Source of the DNA: Liolophura sinensis
Taxonomy: Eukaryota; Mollusca; Polyplacophora; Chitonida; Chitonidae
NCBI RefSeq assembly: GCF_032854445.1
Contig: NC_088303.1
Coordinates: 18,793,501-18,857,500 of the forward strand
Direction of reading: 5' to 3'
DNA: 64,000 nt
Part shown: positions 3,601 to 62,607 of the stretch, piece after piece
Position numbering within the stretch: the first letter of the stretch is position 1
Layout of the letters: every line of letters begins with the position of its first letter
Translations under genes and position numbers: made by a program
The notes under the pieces: model-generated
Seen by the model: only the letters and a program-made list of their open reading frames with translations
Database searches by the model: none
What the model was told of the DNA's origin: nothing

Positions 3601-6600
3601 GCTTGCAATATTGTTTAGATCACGACAAGACCCTGTCTCCGTGTGGCATGTCATTTAATGCCAACATTTTTATTGTGTTGCTTCTCTTGAACGCCATTAC
3701 ACAAAACATGATGCTTCACATTACACTAACAACTGGGAGTCCAGTACTGGGCATATCAACTCAATTGCTCCGTGTCAAAGAATTAATATTAATCTTCATG
3801 CAGTACATGTATTGCGTCTTATCCGTATATCACAGGAATGCTAAATATCATAATCTATATATTAACATATATAGCACTGTTTTTCTCCAACTACTAAGTC
3901 ATCACAGATAAACAAAGTAATGCCAAAAAAAAATGCAATTGAACGATGTCAATAATTTGATTTTCCATAAAGTAAATCACAAGAGGTACTGGGCTGACTT
4001 AATAAATGTCAAAATATTGACATCTTCTAAATGCATTTCTTTATAGTTTGTTTTATTATTGTGTCAAGGCAAATCATGCAGTGGGTCGTGTATAGACGCC
4101 ATTGAAAATTCGAAAACACAGAGCCACATGTGTAGGTTTAAACTATAAATGGTTACATAGATCTCTACATGTGGTGTCATAGAGAGCTGCAGACATTCGC
4201 CCGTTGAGTTCATTGAAATTGTTTATGTCAACATGAACATAATATCACAATGAAATAATAGTACAGACATTGATTGCATAAATCGGTTATATCAAATATT
4301 AACTCAGTTTTCTTCCATTGCTTTACGTCAGCTAATCGAGCAGTACGGCAAGAATCAGGAAATAACAGACCTACTGGATGAAATTGACTGGTATATACTG
4401 CCGGTTTTTAATGTGGATGGTTACGAATATACTTGGACAAAGGTGGGTGGGAAATCTGCTATACTTATATGTATATGGGACAAAGAAATATAGTTATCAC
4501 CTAACAGAAAAAGGAAAATTTGCCACATTCCTCGAAAAATTCCTTGAAAATTTCGACTAACGCAACTAGTGCGTAAATGATACAGGCTGTATCCACCACA
4601 GTCGCTCGGGCCCTGATCAATCAGGTCACAGGCTTGAATCCAGCTTATGCTTTTTCGACTGCGGTTTTATGTTAGAGGGTTTGCAAGGTATATACATGTA
4701 TGTATAAATGGCAAAGAGTGGTGCTTGAGATTACTATATACCATCCACCCGGATTTCACCATGTATAAATCTAACCGCCGTTGATCATATGACTAAATTC
4801 CTTAGTGTAGCACTTCAGTGCGCAATAAACATCAATCAAATATATAAATCAAGTAAATGAACACAGAGTATATCTTTCTCTGCCTTGCACTTTGCGTCAT
4901 AGTTCAAAATGACATCGGAGCTAAAATGCAACCGTCCGTTTTTAAACGTAGGATCGCAACTGGCGGAAGACTCGCTCCAAACATTTTCTGTGCCATGGGG
5001 TTGACCCTAACCGCAACTGGGACTGGGAATGGTGTAGTAAGTGCAAACTTCATGCTACGATAAAGAACTCCTCCACAGTATGTAAAACAAGAGCAGCGAA
5101 AACTGTGCGATAATTGGCAAATGGTCACACGTAACCGGTGAATATATCAATTCAAACCTCACCGAAATGGAAACGTTCTGATGTGGATGGAAGCTTCTAA
5201 TTATATTTGGACAAGGTGTGTGTCGTCAATTTCTAAGGCGGCTACTTGGACCGCAGAGAAAAGCCTAAAATAAAACCTCTAGTGTAATGCTAAATTTCAT
5301 TTTCGTTTATTCCAACGTTTTGATAAAACTTTTTGCACAAAGTGTTTTTAAATAAACTTTCTGTTACTTTCAAACTTATTTAGAACAGTAAAATTTACCT
5401 GTTTGTGGTTGTTAAACATTAGCTGCTTTATGAAATTATACAGTATTTGTGTAGTCTATTTACTATTTCGAGTGCTTTTAATTATAATGTCATAATTTAG
5501 ACATATCATATGTAGTTTATTTATTGTCTATTCTTGAAGGTTTTCCAATGCACAACAAAAGAAAAACTCTGTAATATAACTGAAATGTCAATTCAGTAAT
5601 AGGATTTATGAAAATGCAAAACTTTTTTTTTAATTTGTAATTTGTTTGTGTCCACAGAAAATGGTGCTAGCAAAGACCCCTGTTCAGATACGTACTGTGG
5701 ACCGAGGCCGTTTTCAGAGTCAGAGGTGAAAGGCGTGGCTGATTTCCTGAATTCTGTACCAGGGCGGTTCCGGGCTTACATCGACTTCCACAGTTTCTCT
5801 CAACTTTGGATGACACCATGGGGATATACTACAGCTCTCCCCCCGGAGTTCCCAGTCCAGGTTGGTACAAATGTATAACGTGAAAATAATTTAAACTTTT
5901 TCCAATCCAGTATAATTTATGTCGAGCAATCCAAACCACTTTTGAATACCACTTCTCTAAATAAAGAAACAAGGTTCATAGTTGGCCGGGTGATATAAAG
6001 ATTTCTCCGGGAACTTGACTATATCATTTGACCAAGGTACATCCATGATGTTTGAGTCCTTTGAGTTCCTGGTTGCGGTTATCAGTAAATCATGCACTAT
6101 TCATGTAAAGTATTCAAATGTTATTTATATTTGACAGGATAAATGCTCCACGACAGCTACTGATGCGCTGACCGCTGTACACGGCACCGAATACAAACAT
6201 GGGAACATAGCCAGTACTATATGTAAGTGGTCGGTGAGGTACCAAACACAAGCTTGAAAACGTAGTCAGCACTGTCTGTAAATAAGTTATATGGAACCCA
6301 AAACAAGTATAGAAACATAACCAGTGGTATCTGTAAGCACCAAACACAAACATGGAAAGATAGCCAGCATTATCTGTACATGACTTAGGCCTATAGGCCT
6401 ACGGAATCGGAAACAAATATGGAACAGGACCAGTGGTATCCGGAAGTGACTAACTAGGGCATCAAACAAAATCTTGCAAACATAACCATTAATGTCTATA
6501 CGTATATAAAATAATTACAGCATCTAAAACAAAACAGAGCAGCGATAACGGTGTGACAGCTGGCAAATGGCCGCACGTAACTGGTGAAATACGCCTTCTT

Positions 6601-7248
6601 GTGAAACCGTCTCTGTTAGTGTTTCATTCTATAGATCTAGCCAAAGAAAGCTGGCTTAAACCGGTGGTACATGTCATGTGGCATTAGATTTAAATAACTT
6701 TTTACTTGTGAAGAAACTATTTTAAACGTAAGAGACGCGTAGCCTTCAATCCCCACCCTCCCATGCAGCCAATAAGCCGTTGTTACTCGTCGACACTGCA
6801 TGTAATATAATTAAAGACGTACAGTATAGAGCGTAAGACCAAGCAGTCACGACAGTGTGATAGCTGCCAAATGGTTAGGCAGCCTCTTGTCAGTTTACCT
6901 CAGTCAGGGTTTTATTCTGACTGTTCATGTAAATGCTCAAATAGTAGCAATTTGCAGGCGCCCTAGCACCATGGCTTCAGGAGAATTACGTAAAAAAAAT
7001 GCAGTGATGTTAATCGCAATTTATTAGACGTCACTGGGTTTTTTTTGTTTTGTTTTTTAGACACTGCCAGTGGAAGCAGCGCAGACTGGGCGTTTGGAGC
7101 GGCCAAAATACTTTACTCTACTGCTGTGGAACTACGGGATACTGGAGAGTACGGCTTCCTTCTACCGGCAGACCAGATCATTCCGTCAGGGGAAGAAACT
7201 CTGCAAGGGTTACTGGCCATGGCAAAGTTCATTTTGAACAATCCCTAG
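684..7248 (+). CDS. M14 zinc carboxypeptidase (A/B type), secreted proenzyme
   Basis: Ten exons join in frame to 424 aa: 684-763, 983-1067, 1531-1758, 2606-2707, 3232-3339, 4332-4442, 4952-5036, 5658-5860, 6138-6222 and 7061-7248. The start codon opens a hydrophobic signal peptide ([20 protein letters not shown]). Residues from about 27 to 125 are the inhibitory pro-segment. The peptidase domain follows with all zinc ligands: His185 and Glu188 in GGIHAREW, and His311 in DFHSF. The substrate-binding Arg243 (WRKTRS), Asn258-Arg259 (PNRNWD), Tyr363 and the catalytic Glu386 (VELRDTG) are present. The residue matching specificity position 255 is Ala, so a hydrophobic C-terminal substrate (A-type) is more likely than a basic one. 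Tyr198 of the family is Phe here. The protein is probably a digestive exopeptidase; its role is inferred from the family. The length matches the usual 415-425 aa. Intron 9 carries an exon-derived array. Confidence 0.93.
5083..5145 (+). repeat. Short dispersed repeat, about 65-80 bp, copy 1
   Basis: This shares a core reading ATTGGCAAATGGTCACACGT with three other places in the window (6523-6604, 6829-6905 and 48427-48515). It sits in intron 7 of carboxypeptidase 1. I do not recognise the family. Confidence 0.5.
5171..5222 (+). pseudogene. Remnant of carboxypeptidase exon 6 end with its donor site
   Basis: The segment GATGTGGATGG, a short degenerate stretch, then TATTTGGACAAGGTGTGTG mirrors the end of exon 6 at 4405-4450 (AATGTGGATGG, then TACTTGGACAAAGGTGGGTG). 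It lies in intron 7, downstream of exon 7. It looks like a decayed copy of the exon end plus 5' splice site; the reading frame is broken. Confidence 0.5.
6183..6510 (+). repeat. 55-bp degenerate tandem array seeded by exon 9 end and donor
   Basis: The first unit is the last 40 nt of exon 9 (6183-6222) plus the first 15 nt of intron 9. About five diverged copies follow, starting near 6238, 6293, 6338, 6402 and 6458. Each keeps a version of the exon words (ACAAACATGG, ATAGCCAG), and most keep a GTAAG/GTAAA-like site in the donor position. Read-through from exon 9 meets a stop within the second unit. Confidence 0.75.
6523..6604 (+). repeat. Short dispersed repeat, copy 2
   Basis: It has the same core as 5083-5145, here reading GCTGGCAAATGGCCGCACGT and running on into GCCTTCTTG. 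It is in intron 9 of carboxypeptidase 1, directly after the 55-bp array. Confidence 0.5.
6829..6905 (+). repeat. Short dispersed repeat, copy 3
   Basis: A more diverged copy of the element at 6523-6604 (ACAGTGTGATAGCTGCCAAA, then GCCTCTTG), also in intron 9. Confidence 0.4.
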
Positions 7249-7269
7249 AACACAGCTATGTTAAACATT

Positions 7270-7275
7270 AATAAA
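7270..7275 (+). other. Polyadenylation signal of carboxypeptidase 1
   Basis: AATAAA lies 21 bp after the stop codon, which implies a very short 3' untranslated region. No better signal is close by. Confidence 0.6.
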
Positions 7276-7436
7276 GTATTTATCAGACTTTGTTGATGTA
7301 ATCGAAATAGCAGATTGCCTACGTCACGTCAAATTTAATTTTAGGGGGAACGAAACAGATTGCGTTCTTCAGTTTACATACAATATTGTGTTTAATGGAT
7401 TGCATGCCAAACATAAGAATCTCATGCCTATTTTGG

Positions 7437-7502
7437 GGTTGAATGAATGATTATGGCTTAACGCCACATCGGCAATATTTCAGCCATATCGTGGCGACCA
7501 TT
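7437..7502 (-). mobile_element. SINE tail fragment, second family
   Basis: The sequence GGCTTAACGCCACATCGGCA followed by AATATTTCAGCCATATCG is the reverse complement of a SINE 3' end also seen at 25655-25715. The words 'gtggcgttaagccataatcattcattca' of that tail also make up the 40-bp array at 39271-39762. Confidence 0.45.
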
Positions 7503-7558
7503 TTGGGGTTGAAGTGAATGCAGTATTCAACACGTTTTCACTTATATGTACTTCACTG

Positions 7559-7780
7559 GTGTTTTCCCCTGAAGTCAAGAATATTTCACTGATACGACGG
7601 CGGCCAGGATTATGGTAGAAGGAAACCCACGACCATCCCCAAGTTGCTGACAGACCTTCCCACGTAAAGCCGAAAAGGAAACCACCATGCGCTGGGCTTG
7701 AACTAACAGCGACCGCATTGGTGAGAGGCTCCTAGACCATTGCGCGGCGCTGGCGTACTAACCCTTCAGTCACGGAGGCC
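7559..7780 (-). mobile_element. tRNA-derived SINE, family A
   Basis: Reverse-oriented, almost full-length and diverged. The tRNA-like head is at the right end (CACGGAGGCC, the complement of GGCCTCCGTG). The conserved body includes the complement of CTTCCCACGTA and of AGTGAAATATTCTTGA. It lies between carboxypeptidase 1 and the 48-bp array. Confidence 0.7.
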
Positions 7781-7902
7781 TCTTGTTTTCACTTTTAAGA
7801 CGGCCGTCAGGTAAATACTGCCTCAGGAAACCGGAGTGCCCGTAGTATATGTCCACCCTTCGTCAGATATACAGTACAAGTAATCAGAGTGCCCAGATTG
7901 AA

Positions 7903-8477
7903 CTGGAATGCCCGGAGTAATCCACCGCCTTTCTCCAGGCTTGAGGGAAACTGGAATACCCAGAGTAATCCACCGCTCTTCTCCAGGCATGAGGGAAACT
8001 GGAATACCCGGAGTAATCCACCGCTCTTCTCCAGGAATGAGGGAAACTGGAATGCCCTGGGTTATTCACCACTCTTCTCCAGGAATAAGGGAAACTGGAA
8101 TACCCGGAGTAATCCACCGCTCTTCTCCAGGCATGAGGGAAACCGGAATGCCCGGAGTAATCCACCGCTCTTCTCCAGGAATGAGGGAAACTAGAATGCC
8201 CGGGGTTATCCACCGCTCTTCTCCAGGCATGAGGGAAACCGGAATGCCTGGAGTAATCCACAGCTCTTCCCCAGACATGAAGGAAACTGGAGTGCCGGGA
8301 GTAATCTACCGCTCTTCTCCAAGAATGAGGGAAACTGGAGTGCCGGAAATTATCCACCGCTCTTCTCCAAAAATGAAGGAAACTGATATGCCGAGAGTAA
8401 TCCACCGCTCTTGAACAGTTATGGTGTAAGCCAGAATACCCGATGTAGGCCACGGCTCTTGGCCAGTTATGGGGGTT
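7903..8477. repeat. 48-bp tandem array, about 12 copies
   Basis: Contiguous 48-bp units are built around GTAATCCACCGCTCTTCTCC followed by AGGCATGAGGGAAA. Because 48 is divisible by three, several frames on both strands stay open for 100-189 codons. These are artefacts of the repeat, since there is no start context and no recognisable fold. The units decay toward both ends, and the last two copies (8383 onward) diverge most. It lies about 650 bp behind carboxypeptidase 1. Confidence 0.9.
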
Positions 8478-9885
8478 TAAATATATTAAATATTTCGAAA
8501 CTAAGTAAGGGAATCATACCAAAATTACTCCAATTGAAGGTGCTTCATCTCACCACTTTGTCGCAAACAGTGATTTCGTTCTAGTTTAAATAGCAGACGA
8601 AAATTTGCTATTATTTGCATAGCGTTTATTTCAACAGAAGATTGATGTTAAGTTCAACATTAGATACAAAGTAAACACAAGGGTATAAACGTATGACAAC
8701 AATAATTGTAGTCCATGCAAGAACGCCATTTTATTTCACATAAGTTTGCAATCAAATGCATGAGTTGCAATTAAATGACAAAAATAATATATTTTTATCC
8801 TACGCTTGCAAGTAACAAGTTTTGTATAGTAAACGTCCATAATATCACATCTGTCCTAGATAAAAACTGAAAATCGAAAAGAATTTAACAGAATCTGTCT
8901 AATCAGAATATCTCGTCCATTCAGTTTGAATGAAATGTCAACAGGTAGACAGGTTGGTATGCATAAAACATTTTCACTTTTGACCGTTATGTGTCCAGAT
9001 TTTATCAGGTAGAATTCTTGACAATCTTCATGTTCATATTAAACTTATTCACTTGATATTTAAGAGGCTACATCTGAGATTCCTCAGTCAAAAATCAATC
9101 AGTTCTAATCCAATCGAATTCTTGTATATCCCAAATAATTACCTTCCACAAAATTTCAGGCTGCTCTGGGCACGTGTTACCGGTCAAAAGTGGTACTAGA
9201 GTTCATAAAATTTCTAAAGCGGGTCACACCATAGCTTTCTCAAACTTATTAAAAATCATTTGAACATAGTAATTAGCAGAGAAATGCGTCTGGTAACCAA
9301 TGAAAAGCAATAACTTGAGAAAACTCGATTGGATTACCAAATATAGATTTTTGGGGTCAAAAATCTCAAATATAGCTTCTTCAATATGCTACACACATCC
9401 TATGTAAAATAAAATTACCTCATATTTATATATCATGTAATATATCGTGCACAACATGCACGTAAGGTGGGGTGAAAGGATTTCTGTCTAACATGTCGTG
9501 ACAGAAGCACACCATACTTCCACTTGCAATTTTAGCAGGTACTAATGAAAAGCACAGGCACACCTTTTATATATTATACCACAGTAGGCCTACACGAATA
9601 GGGGATTTTATAAGAACACGCGCAAAGCTAGTAAAGTTCATTTGATCTTCATATTGCTCAGAAGACAATAAACGGAGGTATCACAAAGTAAAGAATAACA
9701 TGAAGAAGAACAGAAACACGAGATAATAATTATGGTCAAGTCAGCAAGTGATTCCAATAATTCTACATGGATAAAAAACGTTTCCAACCAATTAGAACCA
9801 TGCACCAGAAGGTAGAGCGAGACCTGGACACGTGCAATTCCCTTAAGAACCCATGTCACAGTTGATGGGTATACTCTTCAACGAT
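8478..9885. other. Gene-free AT-rich spacer
   Basis: No exon, RNA gene or repeat stands out. Short open frames here show no recognisable protein feature. Confidence 0.5.
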
Positions 9886-10127
9886 TTGATTGATTGATGT
9901 TTTATGCCGCACTCAAGAATATTTCACTTGTAGGACGGTGGCCAGCAGTGTATGGTGGGAGGAAGCCGGGTGGTGGGAAACTACGACCACCCGCAGTTTG
10001 CTGGAAGACCTTACGACCGGACGGGAGGCCAGCATGAACTGCATTTGAATTCACAGCGATCGCATTGGTGAGAGGCCCCTGGGTTACTGTGCTGTGCCAG
10101 CACGCTAACCACAAGGCCACGGAGGTC
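9886..10127 (-). mobile_element. tRNA-derived SINE, family A
   Basis: A reverse-oriented, near full-length copy. From left to right it shows the complement of the tail (TCAAGAATATTTCACTTG), the body (GCAGTTTGCTGGAAGACCTT) and the tRNA-like head ending in CCACGGAGG. Confidence 0.75.
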
Positions 10128-10269
10128 CATAATCCACAATGGGTCGGCAACGAAACGTTACCTGTATGTTATTGTTCATGCAGGTTAATTTACGTATTTC
10201 ATCAAATCAAACATAATCAAGATTTTTGTCTACTTTCGAAACAATTCGGTTCCAAATAAAATCTGATAA

Positions 10270-10980
10270 TTGATATTCATTCATTCATTTATTTATTGGA
10301 TAAGCCTTTTACGTCAAGGACCAGATCTTTCATCAGCTGGACCCAGACCAGGTTTAGGGTTGCAGGAATCCGGTTGTCCTGAAAAAGCCGCCATATCTAG
10401 CCAGGATTACGTGGCACACGTACGTTGTCTGTTCTTAGATGCGACAAACTACAATCTATAAATAATACATAGTATCTATAAGTCACTTTGTCTGTCTACG
10501 GTCCGTATGTCAAATTCTTAGCTGTGACAAATCCCCCTCTCTGTCCGTCTGTTTGTCGATCGGTCAAATTTGAGACCACCTCCTATCTTAACATAATTCC
10601 CTTTAACATGGGTAACTCACTTAAGGCTTTAGCGTAGGACATGTTGGTGGTCGCTGCATGATATTGCTAATTTGCAAAGGAATACTAAATTAAGGACTTA
10701 TTTGCCAGAACCGACTGAATTGGTCTCATATAAACTCATTACAAAGTGCATCTATTCCTCTAAGAATTATATCACAATATGATGGACACAGTTTCATTCT
10801 TTACGGCCAGGATATCTTCTTTTGAATGTAAACGGCTAACAAGATAAAGCCTTTATGCAAAATAGTTGTTGGTATAATAGACATGTGATTTACAGTTGGT
10901 GCTAACAGAATAGATAAATGGCATACCATAATACCATAATAACTGTAAGCATAACATAGTCATATGATTTAGGCCTGGCA
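10270..10980. other. Spacer with a possible old repeat
   Basis: Bases 10280-10440 read like a degenerate interspersed repeat starting TTCATTTATTTATTGG, but I cannot assign it. No gene is seen. Confidence 0.3.
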
Positions 10981-11108
10981 TCAACCTGCGGATGGTCGTG
11001 TGTTTTCTAGGGCTCTGTCCGGTTTCCTCATATCATAATGATGGCCGCCGTCGTATAAGTGAAATATTCTTGAGAACAGCGTCAAACACCAATCAAATAA
11101 ACAAATAA
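10981..11108 (+). mobile_element. SINE family A, 5'-truncated
   Basis: The 3' half only: CAACCTGCGGATGGTCGTGT, then GTATAAGTGAAATATTCTTG and an A-rich AAATAAACAAATAAATA tail. Confidence 0.7.
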
Positions 11109-11501
11109 ATACGATTTACTATTAGTGCACACAAAACATAGACAAACGGCAGTTAAAGTAAATGCCATGTTATGCCATTTATGATGGATGTTAGCAGAAT
11201 AGACAAATTGCACACTATCATGACAACAGCTTTAAGCATAACATAGTCATATGATTTACTATTAGTGTGCACAAAACATAGAGTAAATGCCATCTTATGC
11301 CATTTACGATTGATGTTAATAGAATTCACAATGTTTTTCAATAAAATATACATATGATGAACACTTTATACATGATACACCAGAAAAGGCATACAATTTA
11401 AAAAAAAGGTTTATATATGTATGAATACATGTATGTACAAAGAGTAAAATACAGTGATACATTTGTTTATTTATTCATTTAATTGATGTTAATACGGTAA
11501 A

Positions 11502-11502
<1 letters not shown>

Positions 11503-11555
<53 letters not shown>
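11503..11555. repeat. (TA)n microsatellite
   Basis: About 26 uninterrupted TA dinucleotides in the spacer between carboxypeptidase 1 and NAGPA. Confidence 0.95.
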
Positions 11556-11556
<1 letters not shown>

Positions 11557-12384
11557 CTGCCCTAATAATAGAACGATCGATATGCATCAGAAAACACTGA
11601 TAAATGGACATGTCGATAATATATAATTCAAAAATGGCTAAGTAAGCCACCAAATTAAGATTAAAGTATGCCACATTTGGTGGCAAACAGATAGTCACGT
11701 GAAGATCCGTAAGTCCAGCGTTTGTGCTGACTACCAGAGTTCCAAAAAAGTAATGATCGACGACGAATATGACAAACTCACAGTACTTTATACTATTAAT
11801 TAATTAACTTTAATACTATTAATACATTAATGCTACTAAGAGAAAAAATATCCAAGAAACAAGATAAGTTGCAATTCAATTTCTTTTCCTTTGACATACT
11901 CAGTGAGGAGCCTTGCTGATAAAAAAAATGGCTGAACTTGTTTCCCTTTCTTCAAACAAAACCCGCAACAACGCCTTGGTAAGGTGAAGGTGTAGGTATA
12001 GTTAACAAACAAAACTTATCACATTTGCAAAATGATAACTGCAACCTGTAGCAGTGGGAAAAATATCAAATATCATTTTATATATATCAGAATCTTTTAT
12101 AAATATCAAATATCATTTTATATATAATATTCTTCCCAAACCTCACTTATTTTTGCCACTCATATTCATATGTGACCTACATCATTATTAAAGGTACATA
12201 CTTGAAATTTTTAAGGTTATTATGAATTTGGCTCCTTGTCAACAGTTACATAAGAAGTTTAATAAAATGTCTTGTAACAGAATAACAGTATATATATGCT
12301 GTAACAATATAGCACCATTTAATGGAATGTGATAGAATTTCTCTTTCTCTCCATTATGGAAGACATACTTGACTTTGATATGGT

Positions 12385-12542
12385 CTGATGGTCACTACAG
12401 CCCTGTTCCCTAACTCTAGCCACTCAATGTTGAGCGCCAAGTGTGGAAGCGACAAGTACCCTTTTTCTACTTGGCTACTACCCGACCCAGATTTGAACTC
12501 TAATCTCCCAAGGTGACGCTCTAACCACTAAGCTACCGACGT
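12385..12542 (-). mobile_element. tRNA-derived SINE, family B head
   Basis: On the minus strand a tRNA-like head (GGTAGCTTAGTGGTTAGAGC, later GAGTTCAAATCTG) runs into TTGGCGCTCAACATTGAG. The latter matches the body of the elements at 42357-42612 and 45550-45915. Confidence 0.5.
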
Positions 12543-13302
12543 TAACTGTTTAATCACTAGGCAACCAAAGCGGCTTGCTTAACTGGTAAATCGTGTACTA
12601 AACCTGCCCACTGAGATATATTCTCTGCAACTGATTCTTACAGGCATTTTCTTAAAGAGAATGTCAAGGCACATCAAAGCAATGTTTGTTTTATACATCA
12701 CATTTACCAATATTTATTTATTTATGTGAAATATGAATGAATTAGCTCTACAAGGCTACATGTAGGAGCTCACTATGTTTATCAGGAAGTAGACCTTGAG
12801 CACCACAGGTAAAACAACCTAACAGGGCATTCCTGCACCCAGAAAGGAGGGCAGTTTTTGGCCACATTAGAGCCTTTGTACCCAAAGAAATGAGCACAGT
12901 GATCAGCCATATTTTGGGCATGTGAATTTGAGAATTGTTATTTTCTGCATTTACTGCTACAAAATGCAGATTATGGCTCATGAGATTCTGGATTGAAATA
13001 TTTTCTACCAATCAGAGGCTCCACTTCCAATGCAGGCTACCATGGTGATGTGATGCCATTCTTGTATTTCCTGCTACTGTATGATGTATATGTGGTAGGA
13101 ACAACCTTCACCTCTTCTTGCACTTTACGTTATTTTGGGCCAGCAAGTGCTTTAAAAGTTAACAGAGACTTTACAGTTTAACCTTGCACACTATTAGCTA
13201 TATGTATGGAGTAGTGACTCTTTTTAGTAATTATATTAGGCCTATATTTTTGAGGGTGTCTTCTGACAAATTAATTCTACATGTACAGTAGTGAAATTTT
13301 TT

Positions 13303-13445
13303 TCACTTTGCAGGATGTCGGAGAAGTCGCACACCATCCAGGTTGAGGTTGAATGCTTGAGCTATAGAGCAGTGTGTTGCCCTATCTCTTTCAAACATAA
13401 AAACCAATTCAACTCTTTCTTCTACTGTTAGTTTAATAGGCATAA
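13303..13445 (-). pseudogene. Fragment with transposase-like helix-turn-helix start
   Basis: The minus strand encodes MPIKLTVEERVELVFMFERD followed by RATHCSIAQAFN. This resembles the N-terminal helix-turn-helix of Tc1/mariner-like or related transposase families. Only about 45 codons are readable and no DDE domain follows. It may be a captured or decayed fragment; the family call rests on general resemblance only. Confidence 0.35.
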
Positions 13446-13559
13446 TTAACTCTGAAAAGAGAGAAAAAAATTTAAAATCAGTATTAAATTTGAAACACAG
13501 AAAAAAAATGAAAATGAGAATGGTGCACGACTTCTGAGACACTCTGTAGTGCAGGTGAA

Positions 13560-14560
13560 GGGCTTGCTAATCCACATATTTGGCGAATGACTAGGTACTG
13601 GTACTTGTATCTGTACTTGCTGCTCCACAGACCTGATGAAATATTAAGTGCTGGATGTACTGTACATGCTGCTCTGCAATGAATAACTATATGTAGGCAT
13701 CTGTATTGTAGGAGCAGCGCTTGCTGCTCCACAGGCATGGTGAATAACTAGGTACATGTAGGTGCAGAGCTTGCTTCTCCACAGACCTGGTGAATAACTT
13801 GGTGCATGTAGGTGCAGAACTTGCTGCTCCACAGACCTGGTGAATAACTAGGTACATGTATTCTAGGTTTTGAGCTTGCTGCCCCACAGATCTGGTGAAT
13901 AACCAGGTACATGTAAGAATAGTGCTTGCTGCTCCACAGACCTGGTGAGTAACTGGGTATATGTATTGTAGGTGCAGAACTTGTTGCCCCACAAACCTGG
14001 TGAGTAACTGGGTACATGTATTGTAGGTGCAGAACTTGTTGCCCCACAGACCTGGTGAACAATTGGATACATGTATTGTAGGTGCAGAACTTGCTGCCCC
14101 AGAGACCTAGTGAAAAACTAGACAGATGTATTGTAGGAGTAGTGCTTCCTGCTGAACAGACCTGGTGAATAATTAGATAAATGTATTGTACACCTGTAGG
14201 TGTAGTGCTTGCTGCTCAACAGACCTGGTGAATAATTAGATACATGCATTGTAGGTGCAGAACTTGCTGCTCCACAGACCTGGTGAATAATTGGATACAT
14301 GTATTGAAGGTGCAGAACTGCTGCTCCACAGACCTAGTGAGTAACTAGAAACATGTATTGTAGGTGTAGAGCTTGCTGCTCCACAGGCCTGGTGAATAAC
14401 TAGGTACATATATTGTAGGTGCAGAACTCGCTGCTCCACAGACCTGGTGAATAACTAGGTACATATATTGTAGGTGCAGAACTCGCTGCTCCACAACCCT
14501 GGTGAATAACTCGGTACATGTATTGTGGGAGTGGTGCTTTTAGTTCAAACCATCCTGATA
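13560..14560. repeat. 55-bp tandem array behind NAGPA stop codon
   Basis: About 18 units of 55 bp are built around CTGCTCCACAGACCTGGTGA, ATAACTAGGTACATGTATTG and TAGGTGCAGAACTTG. The array begins about 35 bp beyond the NAGPA stop codon, so it probably lies in the 3' untranslated region. Unlike the NAGPA intron arrays, I see no exon sequence in its unit. Copies are cleaner toward the gene. Confidence 0.85.
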
Positions 14561-14594
14561 ATTTGACAGATCTGGTGAATCAAACAGCAGGCAC

Positions 14595-17500
14595 TCATGA
14601 ATCACTCAGTGGTATAGAGTCATACTTGTTGCTGCCAAGCTTACTTCGGGGAGGACGTGTGATAAAGCTACTTTCCTCCTCAATTTGACTTTTCTCCCCA
14701 CTAGAATCCTCCCCGTCCCCCTCATTTGCACTCTCTTCAGACACGGCATGCCGGTAAACCCGCTTGCTTCGTGAACGCCGTCTCTTACTGCACACGCACT
14801 GAGCACAGACCAGTGAGATGTTGAGGACAATGCTGCAAGCTGCCAGGATACTGATCAGGATGATGCTAATGAGGCACAGTCTACAACAACAACAACAGCA
14901 CATTTTGATTAGCCTAAATAGAGCACGAAAAAGCCAAATGGCAAGTTGTATCCTTCTAACCAAGTACCCTAATTCTCCAACCTTTTCAACCACCTCTAAA
15001 CCAATACTCTGAAACATTCTGAGAGAACTCTGGATGTAGAGAAAAAATCTGCACAGATTTATGAAGCTTGCTTCTTTAGTGACACGAGTAAATCCTTATC
15101 AGATCATTTATTTCATAATAAATGCAGACATATATTCCACTATGCTTTAAGAGGTTGAAAAAGTCAAGGACACAGTATTTTTATTTATACTCTGTATATT
15201 AAGCTGTGATGTATTTGCCTTTATTGGAGATCTAATATACAAACTTTGGATCTGAAATAAAGTCCAATAGAGAGACATATCCTTTTCTTTGCTTAAATGT
15301 TTAATACTGCTTTCAGTATTATTTTAGAAAACATCAATTAATAAAAGTTGTTTAACCTTGGATACTCAATGAAAAGGTTTAGACCGTCATGCAGAATCAA
15401 CAACTTCCTTTTCCCTTGTTCATGTTTCTCTTGTTCCTAGCTGACTAACACACCACTGACTAAATATCTGCACACCAAAAAGTTAGCCATATCCTAATAA
15501 ACTAACTACTGTATCAATATTGGTGAGAAATTACCTGTACTGCTCTGGCTGATCAACCACCAGGTGTCGCTCTGCAATCATCTGACTCATCAAACATGTA
15601 GCAGCTACATGTAGAAATAACAAAACATTGTTGTGGGTATGTGACAGACAAGAGTGTATGGAAATACTTTTTATTGCAATTATTTTCTTTAACCCTTAGA
15701 TATATTGGCAAAATTACAAAGAATGAATATTCTGTTTAAATAAGGGATTGAAGAAAGGGCGTGAATTACAAAAAAAATTTTGATGAAGATCCTTTACTCC
15801 CAGTGATACCTGGAATTACATAATTGCTTACTTCTTGTTGACACACTACACATACAACCATGTACAATCATGTGGTTTGTTCTATTAATGAGCACTGAAT
15901 TTTTACACTTTCTTTTGTTCACATATTAAAGACAAAAAACACACTAAAATGAAGTACATATATTATATATATCAGATGAAAGACCATCAAAATCTGTCCA
16001 GAAAAATAGTCTGATTTATTTTCTTTCTGCCTCTACAGTTATCTGTTGGGTCCTAAAAGATATTGGTGAAGTCACAGCCATATTTTTGGCATGAAATAGT
16101 TTGTTTCAAGGTCCATTCGTGAGTGCATTCATATTTCTGTACATTTGTACTGGTACCAATACGTTCAGAAAAGGCCATCACAGAATCTAAAGTTTCAAAT
16201 GCATTTTACTACAGTGTAGGTCCAAAAATTTTTGTTAAAAATAAATCAAAAATCCTTTCCTAGACAATGTTCATAGGACTATGAAATATTCCTAATTAAG
16301 GTGTGACACAACAGTCAAATAAATGAATAACATGTAATAAATTTAGAAGAAATCTCTTGATTAGCCAGGGAAAAGCACTGAACAATCAAAGAATGTTATA
16401 CATGTGGAACCATGATTTACCTGTCAGGAGGCTTGTTTTGTTGAGTGAGTATTGGCAGCTGCCGGTGATGGGATCACAGGTACAGTCATTAGGGCAATAA
16501 CATTCCCCGATACATTGACGGCCAAAATAACCGTACGGGCATTCTGACAAAATGATGGTCATAATGACAATACACATTATTACAGAGTATTACATTTCAT
16601 GTATATATATATTGAACTGAACACAAAATCTCTTACATGCATGTGTAATACAGTTATGAAACATTACCTGTCATATAAAACTGCCACACAGCCCTGGTGT
16701 AAATTTAAATAAGAATAAAAAAAGTTATTTTAATCATTACTAAATGAAAAAAGGAAAAAAAAAGGATCAACTCTTTTTCATTTGTATGTAAATGTATCTA
16801 CTTTTTCTTTTGTACATTTATATATTTTTGTACAAAACAAACAAAAAAATATATATATATATACATATCTATGAACAGTACATAGAGTCAACTGTGGAAA
16901 GGAACCTGAAATGATCGGAATAAATACTGTGAGAACTCCTTCTATCGTGTTCATACAGTAAGTCACTCTGTTCGAGACCTGAACAAGGAAATTCCACGTA
17001 TACATGTACACGTGTGAGCGTACAATATCCATGTGGCAGGTTTGGTGAGGAATGTGGCTGCTTCATCTTACATTGTATGCATCCTTATTACCAAAATACA
17101 CTGTGTAAAATTCTCCGTTATAAAGAAACTCAGCCATAGGCTGATTCCACAATACTAAAGTCTGACTTTAAGTCAAAAATTTGGAATAGGATTTTAGGGC
17201 TAATTTTCTAGAACATCAAATGTGCCAAAATTTCAGCTTTCAGCGCCAAAAACTAAGCATTATGGGGAGGTCTTAAATATTGTGAATTTGTGAAGTATTT
17301 CCCAGTTAACTAATGTCGGCTGCAGGTCTTACCTTTATCACAGTGTGCACCAGTATACCCTGGCGGACAGTCACACACTCCAGTGATGGAGTTACAAGAG
17401 GCTCCGTGCTCACACTTACAGCGCTCAGAGCACTGCAGACCATACTGTCCCTGGGGACAGCTAGTGTCACAGGTCTTACCCAGCCAGCCTTTATCACACT

Positions 17501-20500
17501 TACATCCTCCTGTAATACAAACACATGATTGCACTGTTAACAAGGGTTAAGAGAAACCTGTACAAATAGCTCAGTGCTGTGATTTGTTTATTTATTTGAT
17601 TTGTGTTTTATGCCATACTCAAGAATATTTCACTGATGTGATGGCAGCCAGCATTGTAGTGGGAGAAAATCAGACAAAGTCCGGAAGAACTCAGTGGTTA
17701 GAGTAACTGTCACACATTATCCCTACCAAGTGAACAAACGAGTCCAATCAGCCATTATAAAGGTTGCTGAACAAAATGCCCTAGTAATCCAGTGCTACTT
17801 TCAACTTTCTACACAAAAAATTGCAGCAAGGCTACCAAAGAGCTCACCTGTAGGAGACACGTGAATGCAAATATACCTCAAGTATACTTAAACATTTGGA
17901 TTCTAATACACAAAAAAAGGTGCAAACGTCAGGAACTTTTTTACATGTATGCAGAATCTCAGCTTATTACATTCATTACGGGACTTTTTAAGATACACCA
18001 CCTTTACATGTAACACTTGCCTTGTTGACATTGCTTTTATCTGTTATTGGATGTTGACGGCAATGATGTCGCTGACTACAGTACGACATAAGTAACCTCT
18101 CTAGTTTGTACGGGTGAGCTCACAAGCAACAAATAATTGCAACCAATGCATATTATTATTATTATTATTATGCATTTATTAATTTAGTGATTCTTTTCAT
18201 TCTACTGACATTTTACACCATTTTACACCATACTCAAGAACATTTCATACGTTGGCTCAAACATTTCACGTTGTGTTTTACCATGACGTCACTCACCTGA
18301 GGTACACTCTCCATGGTCATGGCAGTTGTGTGGACAAATAAGACGATCACAGGCTTGACCCTCCCAGTACTCCTCACACTCACACTGACCCAGGACACAC
18401 TGACCGTGGTCACTGCAGTTGACTGGTGAGCAATCTGGTTGGTGGACACAGACAATGGTGGAAACTTTCCTGGCACAGCGATACTCTTTGTCATGTTTGC
18501 TAAAAACACAATATATATATATATATGATTGAATCTGAAATTTAAATGTAGACTGTTGTTGTCTAAGATGCTACCTATATATATAGGTCAATATGTTCAT
18601 ACACACTGTACCTACACATACATGACCAATTCTGCATATTTCAACTGGGCATTGTCTGTTGGGCTTCTATTCACACACTTACCAGGTGTCTGTGGGGTAG
18701 TTGGCTAGGGTTCCATTCTCACACTTACCAGGTGTCTGTGGGGTAGTTGGCCAAGGTTCCATTCTCACACTTACCAGGTGTCTGTGGAGAAGTTAGCTAG
18801 GGCTCCATTCTCACACTTACCAGGTGTCTGTGGGGTAGTTGGCTAGGGTTCCATTCTCACACTTACCAGGTGTCTGTGGGGTAGTTGGCCAAGGTTCCAT
18901 TCTCACACTTACCAGGTGTCTGTGGGGTAGTTAGCTAGGGCTCCATTCTCACACTTACCAAGTGTCTGTGGGGTCGTTGGCTAGGGTTCTGTTCTCACAC
19001 TTACCAGGTGTCTGTGGGGTAGTTGGCCAAGGTTCCATTCTCACACTTGCTGGTGTCTTTGGGGTAGTTAGCCAGGGTTCCATTCTCACACTTACCTGGT
19101 GTCTTTGGAGTAGCTGATCAGGGTTCTATTCTCACACTTACTGGGTGTCTGAGGGGCAGCTGATTAGGGTTCTATTCTCATACTCACTAGGTGTCTGTGG
19201 GGTAGTTGGCCAGGGTTCCATCCTCACACTTACCTGTGTCTATGGGCTAGTTGGCCAGTTGGCTGTGAGGTTGTTGGCCAGGGTCCATTCTCACACTTAC
19301 CAGGTGTCTGTGGGGTAGATGGCCATGGTTCCATCCTAGGGTTCCTAAGCTAGGGTTCCTTTCTCACACTTACCAGGTGTATGTGAGGTAGTTGGCTAGG
19401 GTTCCATTCTCACACTTACCTGGTGTCTGTGGGGTAGTTAGCTTGGGTGCCTTTCTCACACTTACCAGGTATCTGTGGGGTAGTTAGCTTGGGTTTCATT
19501 CTCACACTTACCATCTGTGGGGTAGTTGGCCAAGGTTCCATTCTCACACTTATCTGTGAGGTAGCTGGGTAGGGTTCTGTTCTCACACTTACCAGGTGTC
19601 TGCAGGGTAGTTGGCTAGGGTTCCATTCTCACACTTACCAGGTGTCTGTGAGGTTGTTGGCCAGGGTCCATTCTCACACTTACCAGGTGCCTGTGGGGTA
19701 GTTAGCTAGGGTTCCTTTCCCACACTTACCAGGTGTATGTGAGGTAGTTGGCCAGGGTTCCATTCTCACACTTACCTGGTGTCTGTGGGGTAGTTAGCTA
19801 GGGTGCCTTTCTCACACTTACCAGGTGTCTTTGGGGTAGTTGGCCAAGGTTCCATTCTCACACTTACAGGTGTCTGTGGGGTGGTTGGCTAGGGTTCAAT
19901 TCTCTAACTTACCAGATATCTGTGGGGTAGTTAGCTAGGGTTCCATTCTCACACTTACCAGATATCTGTGGGGTAGTTAGCTAGGGTTCCATTCACAACA
20001 AAAGTGGCTGATCCACCTCCATCCAGGTTAATGGCATTAACCACACCCAGTGTAAGCAGGAAGTCCACCATCTCCCACATGGTCATTCTGGAATGTACAC
20101 AAGTCAAACTTCAAGAATCATCATAAACGTCACAAAAACCTTCATGAATATTAAACATATTAAATAATGGGGGTACCAGTATTTATCCCATAATTTGCCT
20201 GTGTCAGTGATATAAAAACAGTGGTGTGAATATATAAATAAACCACAATTTTGATTGATAACTTGAACTTTTATCGACAAGCCTATCCAGTGAAAAAGTG
20301 AACTGCATACTGGACTAGTTCTATTGTTTGTTGCTGTGAAAAAAAAAAACAAAACAAAAAAAAAACACAAACAAGCTAGAGATCACTTACTACACCATGA
20401 CAGGAGTTTCTTGGTACCAAATGATTATGTTTTTTGCACACTGGATAGGCATAACATTTATCTTCACGAAATGTGAAAAGTGGCAAAGGTTGGTGAAAGG

Positions 20501-23500
20501 AAATGAAGTGCTTCATGCAGTGCACCTAAAACAAGGTACAAGTTCAACTCTCATGCCTCAGTGTCAGATTTTCCTTGCAGTTAAACACCTACAAACTTAC
20601 CAGAGTAGTTGTCTTGAGCGTATGAACTGGTCTGCAACTGATGCACCTCAATCAAGATTATGTTTGGATCTAGTCCCTTCTATTTGACACATCCAACACA
20701 ATAATTGGTCCCACTGTGACAACTGGATTTTAAGTTCCAAGAAGATTAGTAAGACCAGCAAATAAGTTTTGAGGTGAATTGTTCACATTAAAAGCCTAAA
20801 TTTAAATATTTCGTTCAGCATGTAAGTCATCCTCCCACCCTGTAAGTCATCGGGTGACGTCAGTTGTCATAGAGAAATGACCTAGATTTAGGTCACAATT
20901 TTGGAGCCATATGTTTAGATAAATAAGCTATTTTGACTGCTGATATTTTTGAAACAAATTAAAGCTCGTCATCTTAACGTAAACTAAACAAATGTGCTAT
21001 GTTTTCTGTTCACAAAAATCATAAATTTCCACAATATTTTCTAGAACTATATTATTTGAAATGTGTGGTTCGATTCCAACCATTTCAAATTTATCAATAT
21101 CAGAACGCATCTCACATACTTGTCAAAACAAACAGACGTTGTCTTCTCTATCAACCACCTAAAACCATTGACAATAAATTATGGGATAAATAAGATATGC
21201 AATTCATGACCCATTACATCAAATTTATTGCATTTGTGATGTAATTTTCATTTGTTCCAAGCCTTTGGCAGTGGGACAAATGAAAATTACACCTCTCGTT
21301 CAATAAAACTGATGTTATGGATCACTCTTTGCACATCCTCTGTATATTTTATAAGGTACTATAAAGACACATGAACATGCAGGTGAGATTCCCACATAAA
21401 ACTGAAAAGTCTGATTCTGTGACAATTAATTTTTCTAGAGTCCGATGTTTCCACTGTTCTTGGTGCCTTGCTGGAAATAAGTGGTCAATGGTGGTCTTTT
21501 GAACATGAAGTTTTGCATGAAGAGTTTGCTGGTATAACTCTCCAACATTCAGTGGTTTACTTCGGGCATTCTCGTTAAATTCACCCACAAAAGTGACCAC
21601 CATATTAGAAGTGAAAAGATCTTGAGTATGGCATTAAACAAAAGTATTAGTAAATAAATTTTAATTGAACTCTCATTATCTCATTTTTCATGCATGTAGC
21701 TAGGCTATAGAGCTTCCAGGGGTTTTTTTTGCAGGGGGATGGGGGGGGGGGGGCAGGGATTGGGTGGCTAAAATGGAAGAAGTCTACTTGTCAAAAGATT
21801 ACAGGAGGGACATACATGTGCGGGTATTATTTGTGTATTATATGTTTTCTTCTCTTCTTGAGACTCTAGGTCACAAAATCATAGCCAGTTACTTAAAACA
21901 GTTCAAAATTCCTGACATTTTGGACTACATATCAGCATCACCTACATGAAGGTAGCAAGTACAAGCAGGATTGTACATTTGTTTTTACACTCAATCTAGC
22001 ACAGAATCCAGGTCAGCAAATTGGCTGGGACCAAACTATGACTTGAATCAACAACCTTAGAAACCCAAATGCCATGCAATACAATATGAACTTTGACGCA
22101 TAACTTTGTCATGAGTCACTGAAGTCCTTGGTGTAGAATGACCTCAACAAACCTCAGGAAGATCCCAATTTACAGGGCTGCCATACATACCCATTAGTTT
22201 TGGTTTGGCCATACATACCCATTACTGTGGGTTTGGCCATACATACCCATTACTGTGGGTTTGGCCATACATACCCATTACTGTGGGTTTTGCCATACAT
22301 ACCCATTACTGTGGGTTTGGCCATACATATCCATTACTGTGGGTTTGGCCATACATACCCATTACTGTGGGTTTGGCCATACATACCTATTACTGTGGGT
22401 TTGGCCATACATACCCATTACTGTGGGTTTTGCCATACATACCTATTACTGTGGGTTTGGCCATACATACCCATTACTGTGGGTTTGGCCATACATATCC
22501 ATTACTGTGGGTTTGGCCATACATACCCATTACTGTGGGTTTGGCCATAAATACCCATTACTGTGGGTTTGGCCATACATACCCATTACTGTGGGTTTTG
22601 CCATAGATACCCATTACTGTGAGTTTGGCCATACATACCCATTACTATGGGTTTGGCCATACATACCCATTATTGTGGGTTTGGCCATACATACCCATTA
22701 CTGTGGGTTTGGCCATACATACCCATTACTGTGGGTTTGGCCATACATACCCATTACTGTGAGTTTGGCCATACATACCCATTACTGTGGGTTTTGCCAT
22801 CCATCTGTACAATGATCACACGACCATCCTTGTCCACACCTATCACAGTCCGGGCAGAGTTAACATCTGCAAATGTCTGCAATGTTCCTGTGTAGATATA
22901 AAAGGCATAGGTTTATTAAGCACTTTATGTAAACTGAAAAATGGCATCAATTTTATCATCAGAGTAATCTGTGTTTTTGTTCAACAATACAGCGTATGTT
23001 AACAACTGAGATCGAAAGGTGTCATATGCTGTATATGTACACAAACATACATTTACATTTAGTGATTGTCCCACCATGATGGCTGCAGTGGTATAAGAGA
23101 AATATTCTTGAAATTAGCGAAAAACACCGATCAAATAAATAAACGTTCAATGATTTCACCTGATATACACACACACCTAATGACTCTCCATTGTCATATG
23201 AATGAAAATTTTTTAAGTACGATGTAAAAACCCATGCATACATACATTCTATAAAATGGAATGCATAAAATATATACATGCCCAAACAGCGCTTCAACAC
23301 AGGGAAATAGCATTCATCTCCTGCATGGATCAGGCCTGTATCACACAGACACAGCACCTGTATCACACAGACACAGCACCTGTATCACACAGACACAGCA
23401 CTTGTATCACACAGCACTTGTATCACACAGACACAGCACTTGCATCACACAGGCACAGCACTTGTATCACACAGGCACAGCACCTGTATCACACAGACAC

Positions 23501-26500
23501 AGCACCTGTATCACACAGACACAGCACTTGTATCACACAGGCACAGCACTTGTATCACACAGGCACAGCACTGGTATCACACAGGCACAACACTGGTATC
23601 ACACAGACACAGCACTGGTATCACACAGACACAGCACCTGTATTCACAAGTACCTGCTCCCTCTGTGTCTTCACATTCCAGGTATATGCCCTCAGAGAGG
23701 TGTCTACATGTATCTCCAACCTTTATCACACAGAAATGACAGACACAGCACCTGTATTCACCTCTTTTCTCACACACCAAGTATACGCCCTCACAGAGGT
23801 GTCTACGTGTGTCTCCAACCTTTATCACACAGACATGACAAACACAGCACCTGTATTCACCTGTTTTCTCACACACCAGGTATATAATCACACAGAGGTG
23901 TCTACATGTACCGCTATCATTTATCACACAGAAATGACAGACATAGCACCTGTATTTACCTGTTTTCTCACACACCAGGTATATAATCACACAGAGGTGT
24001 CTACATGTATCTCTATCATTTATCACACAGACATGACAGACACAGCACCTGTATTCACCTGTTTCCTCATACACCAGGTATACCTCACTGAGGTGTCTCT
24101 CTACATCCTATGTCACACAGACACACCACCTGTATTTACTTGTTTCCTCACACACCAGGTATTTACCCTCACTGAGGTGTCTCTCTACATCCTATGTCAC
24201 ACAGACACCCCACCTGTATTTACCTGTTTCCTCACACACCAGGTATTTACCCTCACTGAGGTGTCTCTCTACATCTTATGTCACAGACACACCACCTGTA
24301 TTCACCTCTTTCCTCATACACCAGGTATGCCCCACTGAGGTGTCTCTCTATATCCTATATCACACAGACACACCACCTGTATTTACCTGTTTCCTCACAC
24401 ACCAGGTATTTACCCTCACTGAGGTGTCTCTCTACATCCTATATCACACAGACACAGCACCTGTATTAACCTGTTTCCTCATACACCAGGTATTTACCCT
24501 CACTGAGGTGTCTCTCTACATCCTATATCACACAGACACACCACCTGTATTTACCTGTTTCCTCACACACCAGGTATTTACCCTCACTGAGGTGTCTCTC
24601 TACATCCTATATCACACAGACACAGCACCTGTATTAACCTGTTTCCTCACACACCAGGTATTTACCCTCATTGAGGTGTCTCTCTACATCCTACATCACA
24701 CAGACACACCACCTGTATTTACCTGTTTCCTCTGTGTCTTCACATTCCAGGTATATACTCTCATTTAGGTGGCTCTCTCCATCTCGTATCACCCAAAACA
24801 CTCCACCCACAAGTTGTAAAAAATCCGTCTCCAATAGGAAGGATTCAGATAGATATCTTTTGGAAATATAATGTGACTAATAATTATAAAGCAATCAACA
24901 CATTCCAAAATACCTTAAAACTTGCTCAAGACAATATGACAACAGCCCTACCATATGTATGTAAGGGAATGGTTTGATAGAATAATAAATACAAACATTT
25001 CCATGAAAAAGACACATGATGAATCATGGAATTATTAACATAGAAGGGGATATATACAGCACTAGGACTCTTAATGTAGACAAAGCATAAAATATACATG
25101 TAAAATAATATAATATATTATCTTTACATACATGTACTTATGATTCACTCACCCAAAAAATAAACTTCCATTTTTTAAAATTCCAAAATGAGCATTTTGA
25201 ATTCCTCCAGAGTCCTGCACAAGTCTTCCATCACTGACAACATTTCCTGAAAATTAACACCTTTTTATATCTCACAAAAGAAATCTAGTTACAACTCATA
25301 CAAAACTAAAAGGGTCCTCACTCCTCCGTGGCTCAGGTAGTTAGCCAGTGCAATGATCCGAAAGCCTCTAACCAATGCGGACGCTTTGAGATTAAGCGTA
25401 GCACATACCGGCTTCCTTCCTGGCTCTACATGGGAAGGTTGTTGAAACCTGCAGATGGCCGTGGGTTTCCCCCGGACTCTGAACCGTTATTTCCTACCAT
25501 AATGCTGGCGGTCATTGTATAAGTGAAATATTCTTGACCACAGCATAAAACACCAATGAAATAAATAAATAAATACAAATATCAACAGCACAAAATTCGA
25601 AATTAAAAACAGGAGGCATAATCAATCAAATTTACTTTACAAAATGTGTCTATTAATGGATGGCCGTGATACGGATGAAATATTGCTGACATGGTGTTAA
25701 ACCATTGTCATTCATTATATTATTGGAATTTTGAAAATGTCCATTGATATGAAGTAAATTGCAATAATATATCTGAAACCTGACAAAAAAAAATTTTAAA
25801 GACATTCTACTGAATTTTACAACATTCCTTACCAAGGCATTCCCCTGTTTTTGTATTGAAGAACCCTGCATTAATTGCAACTAGACAGTTTCTCTGCTCA
25901 GCACTTTTGATCACCGTTGCTCGCTCTGCGCCTCCTTTCTGACAGGTTCCCTGATGAAGTGGCTCTAACACTGCAACTGTCTGCACAGGATTGTTAACAA
26001 ATGTCACGTGACCATGTACACGACGCTTATTCCAGTATTCTCCTACTTCCTTAACAACAAGTTTTGTGTTTGCAATTGGAAGAGTAATCTCCCTTGATAG
26101 GAGTCCATGTGGAGCCACAAAAGAATAGGTTGAATTCCCATACTTTATTTTCTGGCATTCTCGAATGTGGCGATTTCCATGTCTAGGTCCATGATGGAAT
26201 TTGTAGGGTGACAAGATATCCATGCCTTCCATAGGATCTCTGAAATTGGCATGAAAAAATAAGTTTTAGGTGCCAACATGGAAAGGAAAACTGTTATTAA
26301 AAAAAAAACCAAAAAAAAAACAATCACTTTAGGTATTTGAAAGTCAAACTGGAACATATCTGCGTCCCATATAAATTATGTCAACACATGTCACTATATC
26401 CCTAGTTAATATGGTAATCCTATATACTACTATAGGAAAAGACTCTTTGCGTTTCTATGACCCTTACATGACACAAGAGTCACATAGCAATCCCACTTAC

Positions 26501-62000: not shown

Positions 62001-62607
62001 GATCGTAAACTCGAGACACCCATTTACCACCCGACGCCCTGATCGTAAACCCGAGACACCCATTTACTAACCCGGCGCCCTGATCGTAATCCCGAGACAC
62101 CCATTTACCACCCGACGCCCTGATCGTAAACCCGAGACACCCATTTACTAACCCGGCGCCCTGATCGTAAACTCGAGACACTTATTTACCAACCCGACGT
62201 CCTGGTCGTAAACCCGAAACACCCATTTACCAACCCGACGCTCTGATTGTAGACGTATGACCATCAACTTGCAAATACGACACTTTGATCCTTAACTCCA
62301 GCTCCGGAGTTCCGGAGTGAACAAAAACCTGCGCTCCCACTTACGAGTTTAAAGCTTTGATGTCTAGGTCGCAGAGTATCATTGCAATGGTTTTATGGAA
62401 CCATGGAACTGGAAATGACTTGATTATTGCATAGTCTCTCTCCATCGTTCAGTGGTGATGGTTTCTATATTCTCTTTCGATGTTACTGTATACCAAATGT
62501 CTAAAGGAGAACATTCGTGTACCTGGAGTTTGTGAGCTTGATCCTGAAGGTAAACCAGGTACTCGAGCTGCGAGCGAGTTCGGGGCCTCACTGTCCAAAC
62601 TTCGTGG
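56025..62607 (-). CDS. M14 zinc carboxypeptidase, paralogue 2 (5' exon missing)
   Basis: Nine exons join in frame to 399 aa (minus strand order): 62607-62523, 61541-61314, 60556-60455, 59107-59000, 58379-58269, 57894-57804, 57413-57211, 56978-56894 and 56212-56025. Eight of the nine have exactly the lengths of exons 2-10 in carboxypeptidase 1; one is 6 nt longer. The zinc ligands are GMHAREW and DFHGF. Arg in LWRKTRS, PNRNWD, the active-site Tyr before VISGAG and the catalytic Glu in [10 protein letters not shown] are kept. Position 255 is Met, pointing to hydrophobic substrates. The usual HSYSQ next to the third ligand is HGFLQ. In the last exon 39 of 61 residues match paralogue 1 by my count. 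The first exon with start codon and signal peptide is not recognised before 64000 and may lie outside the window. Confidence 0.9.
59655..60187. mobile_element. Fold-back element (MITE-like) with long inverted arms
   Basis: The left arm (GAGTGTAACTCTGACATCGA, GAGAGTTACGGAGAATAA, GCATTAAATCTTCCCTG, CCATGACAAGCGCACAAATT) returns inverted in the right arm up to GATTTCAGAGTTACATTCC. The arms are about 230 bp with a short loop near 59890-59930. It is in intron 4 of carboxypeptidase 2. No coding capacity. Confidence 0.75.
61645..62255. repeat. 41-bp tandem array, about 15 copies
   Basis: Units of CCTGATCGTAAACCCGAGAC, ACCCATTTACTAACCCGGCG and C in intron 2 of carboxypeptidase 2. The unit does not match the flanking exon ends. 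Inner copies are nearly identical; outer ones decay. Confidence 0.9.

Follow-up and report, generated by a model that had tools for sequence, protein, structure and literature searches.

Four tandem arrays in a 64,000-nucleotide stretch of the genome of the chiton Liolophura sinensis (NCBI RefSeq assembly GCF_032854445.1, contig NC_088303.1, positions 18,793,501 to 18,857,500 of the forward strand; hereafter the window) are seeded at exon ends, each beginning inside a coding exon and continuing across the splice donor into the intron. Three of them occupy the 5' ends of introns 4, 5 and 6, which are consecutive amongst the ten introns of a minus-strand gene whose public protein model, P0001, is annotated as N-acetylglucosamine-1-phosphodiester alpha-N-acetylglucosaminidase-like (NAGPA-like), whilst the fourth, strongly decayed, lies in intron 8 of a plus-strand carboxypeptidase B-like gene (CPA1). 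A preliminary description of this DNA had placed four such arrays in these two genes between 6183 and 24775, and both their presence there and the seeding of each at the end of its own exon were confirmed. We consider it likely that they are mirage-type minisatellites that passed through a history of duplication, expansion, tolerance and decay, mirages being minisatellite-like tandem duplications across exon–intron boundaries described in amphioxus (PMC3087553; PMC3902484).

Structure of the four arrays

Wrap-around alignment of the three NAGPA-like arrays identified the first unit of each as the end of its own exon, followed by units in which the exon end is joined to the donor and the opening bases of the intron (Table 1). 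Tandem Repeats Finder called the 46, 28 and 22 bp arrays with the limits tabulated and the 84/99 bp array at 23671–24732, the exon-side limit of the latter being chosen by eye at the word GTGATAC. Parsing of the 46, 28 and 84 bp arrays gave 70 rows, partial units included, which were reduced to 58 by removal of rows gapped at the donor. GT was retained in 56 of these 58 when the three real donors are included, and in 53 of the 55 full downstream copies (23/23 in the 46 bp, 19/21 in the 28 bp and 11/11 in the 84/99 bp array). The claim that every unit spans exon end and donor was therefore correct in part: all four arrays start inside the exon, but a donor is not present in every unit, GT being found in these 53 of 55 NAGPA-like copies and in three of the five copies in CPA1. 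Unit length was variable in the 84 bp and CPA1 arrays, the distal part of the 46 bp array showed a three-unit higher-order pattern, and the last 84-type copy kept a longer exon-like form. The 22 bp array, arising from the neighbouring 84 bp unit, is a minisatellite born inside a minisatellite. Intron growth, suggested earlier as an effect of the arrays, fits these data because the array-bearing introns are the longest of the NAGPA-like gene (1459, 1835 and 2691 bp, compared with 296–816 bp in the other seven).

Table 1. Positions in the window of the exons, arrays and comparator gene discussed in the text (a slash marks the boundary between exon and intron)
Feature	Position	Strand	Description
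NAGPA-like exon 4	24723..24856	-	Donor after 24723, CAG/GTAAAT; the 84/99 bp array has this exon's 3' part as its first unit
84/99 bp array, intron 4	23671..24792	-	Unit of exon end, donor and ~30 nt of intron; begins inside exon 4
22 bp array	23337..23648	-	14.4 copies; comes from intronic sequence of the 84 bp unit
NAGPA-like exon 5	22779..22887	-	Donor after 22779, TGG/GTATGT
28 bp array, intron 5	22180..22804	-	Begins inside exon 5; 94% matches, most uniform array
NAGPA-like exon 6	19959..20087	-	Donor after 19959, CTG/GTAAGT
46 bp array, intron 6	18665..19994	-	Unit of 35 nt of exon and 11 nt of intron
CPA1 exon 8	6138..6222	+	Donor after 6222, TAT/GTAAGT; frame exact in P0121
Decayed array, CPA1 intron 8	6186..6520 (end approximate)	+	Exon 8 end and five copies, spacing ~45–65 bp
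CPA2, second carboxypeptidase gene	56025..62610	-	5' limit approximate (gene also given as 61.5–56.0 kb); comparator

The array in CPA1 was not called by Tandem Repeats Finder, even at score 30. Its five decayed copies, with a unit of about 55 bp and limits cut by hand, have 61–76% identity to the end of exon 8, and the best of them scored 28 against that exon end (z = 9.9, 200 first-order shuffles). For comparison, CPA2 has its introns at the same positions as CPA1 and matches it in the length of seven of eight exons, one of these set by homology. The CPA1 copies are only 27–46% like the equivalent CPA2 exon, and CPA2 intron 8 contains no exon-end copy (donor score 7, z = -1.3). Because the copies resemble their own exon and the CPA2 intron is without one, the CPA1 array postdates the divergence of the two genes. 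Across the arrays, uniformity ranges from 94% matches in the 28 bp array to 51–76% between rows in CPA1, the kind of spread expected of arrays that are born and then decay.

The carboxypeptidase B-like models of L. sinensis number at least five (P0121, P0122, P0126, P0130 and P0150), some of them outside the window, and P0122, which is nearer to CPA1 than CPA2 is (78% identity), would make a better comparator for the array at exon 8. A single faint exon-end copy with GAG/GT in register was also seen in CPA2 intron 2 (60557–61313, minus strand) and is possibly a remnant of an older donor duplication. With a score of 16 and p = 0.010 in one of 78 tests it is unremarkable and was not counted as an array, and the exon end against which it was scored is uncertain, having been set by homology to CPA1 at exons where the public model P0150 differs (exons 2–3).

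Placement at donors and choice among them

Placement was assessed over six spliced genes with 39 introns, all within the window. In a recurrence test, each intron was searched for further occurrences of its donor piece (the last 45 exonic nt and 10 intronic nt) or of the corresponding acceptor piece in mirror arrangement. Four donors stood out (z = 14.4, 14.7, 15.6 and 9.9), and none of the 39 acceptors reached p = 0.01 (lowest 0.020). A seed-placement null, in which one unit per array system was dropped at random in its intron, gave a probability of 0.0097 that at least three of the six intronic systems would fall on donors and of 0.0495 that they would fall on either intron end (0.0130 and 0.0648, respectively, with the 22 bp array treated as separate). 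With the CPA1 array included, the corresponding values for at least four were 0.0013 and 0.0123 (0.0019 and 0.0176 when the 22 bp array is treated as separate), an inclusion biased by a search for decayed arrays that took in intron ends but not intron interiors. Donors were hit above the one-seed placement expectation, in line with the earlier claim; exon-end seeding is well supported as an account of these four arrays and moderately supported as a general tendency. A restriction of such arrays to donors, which had also been proposed, is not established: four of 39 donors against none of 39 acceptors (p = 0.058 one-sided, 0.115 two-sided) are too few to tell, and amphioxus has arrays at both kinds of boundary, according to the available text of that study (PMC3087553).

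For each of the four arrays, the public protein model agrees with splicing from the first donor. The spliced product of the NAGPA-like gene (625 amino acids, 11 exons) lies within the 634 amino acids of P0001 with zero mismatches, and the product of CPA1 exons 2–9 (369 amino acids; gene at ~1.0–7.2 kb) is found exactly inside P0121. The public model of CPA2, P0150, is identical over 261 amino acids from exon 4 onward and deviates at exons 2–3. Use of any later donor in the NAGPA-like arrays would be expected to truncate the protein: a frame test, for which a slightly different gap filter left 57 donors, 54 of them downstream, found that none of the 54 keeps the frame open, with a stop within ~10 codons past the normal exon end (stop positions being given for donors 1–12 of each array). 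Since every later donor tested leads to a stop, a simple choice of another donor in the arrays yields no alternative coding ends for the exons, contrary to what the preliminary description had entertained, and could instead yield unproductive ones. In predicted RNA accessibility, the first donor was surpassed by 14 of 22 copies in the 46 bp, 12 of 21 in the 28 bp and 5 of 11 in the 84 bp array. As accessibility gives the first donor no advantage, closeness to the exon is the likeliest rule by which the donor would be chosen.

Proposed history and rival explanations

At birth, a short segment across an exon end would have been copied in tandem. The probable cause is slippage or microhomology-mediated repair involving a 6–7 nt exon word and its counterpart just inside the intron, one duplication between words flanking the donor being enough to give the first two units. 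Each NAGPA-like array carries one such word, picked by eye, both where it begins in the exon and at its opposite end: TGTGAAT (46 bp), ATGGCA (28 bp) and GTGATAC (84 bp). Unequal exchange or slippage would then have multiplied the unit, up to ~30 copies, and homogenized the middle of the array. Expansion would be tolerated if the spliceosome keeps to the exon-proximal first donor, the later copies then being nearly neutral intron, and if use of a later donor yields a premature stop. Old arrays would lose their donors and turn into ordinary intron, with introns lengthened at their 5' ends as the net outcome.

No feature common to all four arrays was found in strand skew, DNA folding or AG/GT content. 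Sense-strand GC skew was +0.44 in the 84 bp, +0.09 in the 28 bp, -0.11 in the 46 bp and +0.01 in the CPA1 array (and +0.36 in the 22 bp array), and this lack of a common sign gives no support to R-loop-linked instability as a shared cause, one of the causes suggested earlier. Folding of one 141-nt DNA piece from each of ten arrays gave z values of -2.29 to +1.88, which did not set the donor arrays apart.

Several points weigh against the proposed history. The words at the far ends might be what is left of a decayed final copy rather than ancestral microhomology; the 84 bp word recurs in the adjoining 22 bp array, and the CPA1 array is too decayed to reveal such a word. Use of the first donor is read from gene models that may lean on homology, and the state before duplication is judged from L. 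sinensis loci. The intronic block of the 46 bp array is also less variable than its exonic part (0.029 versus 0.095; 3 of 46 circular shifts as low), which hints at constraint and is not expected under neutrality. This conservation is weak and possibly an effect of homogenization; the 28 and 84 bp arrays show no lowered intronic variability (9 of 28 and 36 of 84 shifts as low, respectively).

A rival account is that ordinary intronic minisatellites touched donors by accident in an array-rich stretch, exon-end seeding being a product of hindsight. In its favour, arrays with a Tandem Repeats Finder score of at least 300 and a period of at least 15 make up 15.2% of the bases of the 39 introns and only three of the 39 donors lie inside one, so that coverage is not raised at donors, and the placement probabilities were obtained after the fact, the rule having been framed once the arrays had been seen. 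Nevertheless, a random array would not start in coding sequence in donor register, as four of four do, and the probabilities fall further once the CPA1 array is counted, biased as that inclusion is; we therefore judge accidental contact to be unlikely. The copies might alternatively be functional decoys that bind the U1 small nuclear ribonucleoprotein or vie with the true donor, so that unproductive splicing would adjust NAGPA output. This would accord with the near-complete retention of GT, with the stops behind all 54 later donors tested and with donor strength, which equals or exceeds that of the first donor in 20 of 23 copies of the 46 bp, 17 of 21 of the 28 bp and 4 of 11 of the 84 bp array, as scored with a matrix built from the window's 39 donors, array donors among them. 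However, conservation of the donor core columns does not clearly exceed that of the whole unit (8 of 46, 21 of 28 and 61 of 84 circular shifts as low), the CPA1 array has lost GT in two of its five copies, and the first donor is not more open than its copies in local RNA folding, so that a decoy function appears quite improbable.

Intron gain through tandem genomic duplication of AG/GT segments, which the preliminary description had raised as a model, begins with the same raw event, the copying of a splice signal in tandem, and the available text on amphioxus mirages suggests them as a source of new introns (PMC3087553). Only the exon end of the 84 bp array carries AG/GT, though, the other three having TG/GT, GG/GT and AT/GT, and in the carboxypeptidase genes, to which this comparison applies, CPA1 shows no new intron and CPA2 has the same introns without an array; we regard this route as very improbable here. 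An assembly or sequencing artefact deserves mention as long arrays are easily mis-sized and the sequence, a single haplotype, comes from the assembly alone, which leaves exact copy numbers dependent on it. As the origin of the arrays it has next to no probability in our view, given the ordered differences among copies, the strong decay of one array and the four distinct sequences involved.

Birth at the exon end followed by expansion and decay thus remains the reading we prefer for these four arrays. More tentatively, and with less than even confidence, they could exemplify a donor-biased mode of intron growth that is widespread in chitons and perhaps in other animals, in which donors tolerate tandem copying because the first donor wins, and so act as minisatellite nurseries that lengthen introns from the 5' end. 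If this were true, transcripts would have to pick one donor among dozens of near-identical ones. At introns like those described here, both gene prediction and RNA mapping may be prone to error.

Relation to other arrays and to known systems

Other genes in the window were an NDUFAF6-like gene (27544–35277, plus strand), arranged head to head with the NAGPA-like gene with ~350 bp between the start codons used, and two CUB/LDLa-like genes with a transmembrane tail, as judged by eye (38142–40243, minus strand; 48966–50848, plus strand). All three were placed and named by means of a human protein probe plus by-eye judgement. In the exon-end recurrence test, none of the nine introns of the NDUFAF6-like gene had a donor or acceptor match at p = 0.01. 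The 41, 40, 48 and 55 bp arrays had been set apart as not following the exon-end rule, and this was upheld: mid-intron positions are occupied by the 41 bp array and by two of 40 bp, and those of 48 and 55 bp fall outside coding spans. Each CUB/LDLa-like gene carries one 40 bp array within its first placed intron, distant from the intron ends. The unit of the array at 39271–39763 repeats a word of a dispersed element resembling a short interspersed element (SINE), with a similar sequence seen by eye near 7440–7480, and this array may have been seeded in a SINE. The 55 bp array (13702–14526) starts ~70 bp past the stop codon of the NAGPA-like gene (14595) and may lie in its 3' untranslated region. 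A search against Rfam returned no matches in the window at the gathering score.

Amongst the matches listed from the open-licence literature, as far as their available text extends, there was no earlier case of boundary-spanning minisatellites in a mollusc. A 27 bp minisatellite is reported in intron 3 of an abalone TSSK1-like gene, its place relative to the donor not being stated in the text available (PMC6905558). The accessible portions of two chiton genome papers (PMC12005716, PMC11068029) make no mention of such arrays, and those of a study on intronic minisatellites and splicing in C. elegans (PMC4039745) do not have boundary-spanning arrays as their subject. Several other systems bear a partial likeness to the arrays described here, in each case as represented in the sections available. 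In humans, minisatellites at the exon–intron boundaries of segmental-duplication genes alter splicing patterns (PMC2812944), but these form new introns or remain exonic in recent paralogues, whereas the chiton arrays seem to lengthen pre-existing introns. The polyubiquitin gene UBC contains tandem arrays of dual-specific AGGT splice sites with one splice signal per unit (PMC10809524), a system that needs AGGT usable as both donor and acceptor, whereas AGGT is present in the sequence of one of the four chiton exon ends. Intron gain by tandem genomic duplication likewise copies a segment with a splice signal in tandem (PMC3443670); the chiton differs in having a carboxypeptidase gene without a new intron and three of four exon ends without AG/GT.

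The closest counterparts are the amphioxus mirages, and it is for this reason that the arrays, put forward at first as an unnamed class, are not categorically new: they share those structural features of mirages that could be compared and are filed with that kind, a name already in use for the boundary-spanning minisatellites of amphioxus (PMC3087553; PMC3902484). According to the available text of these two papers, mirages occur in Adh3, in the globin genes BflGb6 and BflGb9 and in TnC, with PGBD5 used in comparison; units measure 10–72 bp in Adh3 and 150–160 bp in the globins, with 3–6 units in BflGb6. Splice signals are present in many, but not all, copies, regular splicing is reportedly undisturbed, and length instability has been shown (PMC3087553; PMC3902484). 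Both 5' and 3' boundaries are affected in amphioxus (PMC3087553). As in mirages, the chiton duplications include exon and intron sequence over a splice boundary in all four arrays, their units (28, 46, 84/99 and ~45–65 bp) fall inside the reported 10–160 bp, and GT is kept in many but not all copies (53 of 55 in NAGPA-like and three of five in CPA1). The distal pattern of the 46 bp array and the last 84-type copy further resemble the ends of amphioxus clusters that escape homogenization, as far as these are described in the accessible text (PMC3087553). The chiton case differs in its molluscan host, in having donors only within a small sample, in copy numbers of up to ~30, more than the 3–6 units of BflGb6, and in the involvement of three consecutive introns of one gene. 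Its interest lies in that host and in neighbouring introns whose arrays differ in uniformity, which make the NAGPA-like introns a natural test of donor choice among 12 to 25 near-identical neighbours, and of intron growth. Ultimately, four mirages within 64 kb of a chiton genome suggest that the phenomenon is broader than amphioxus.

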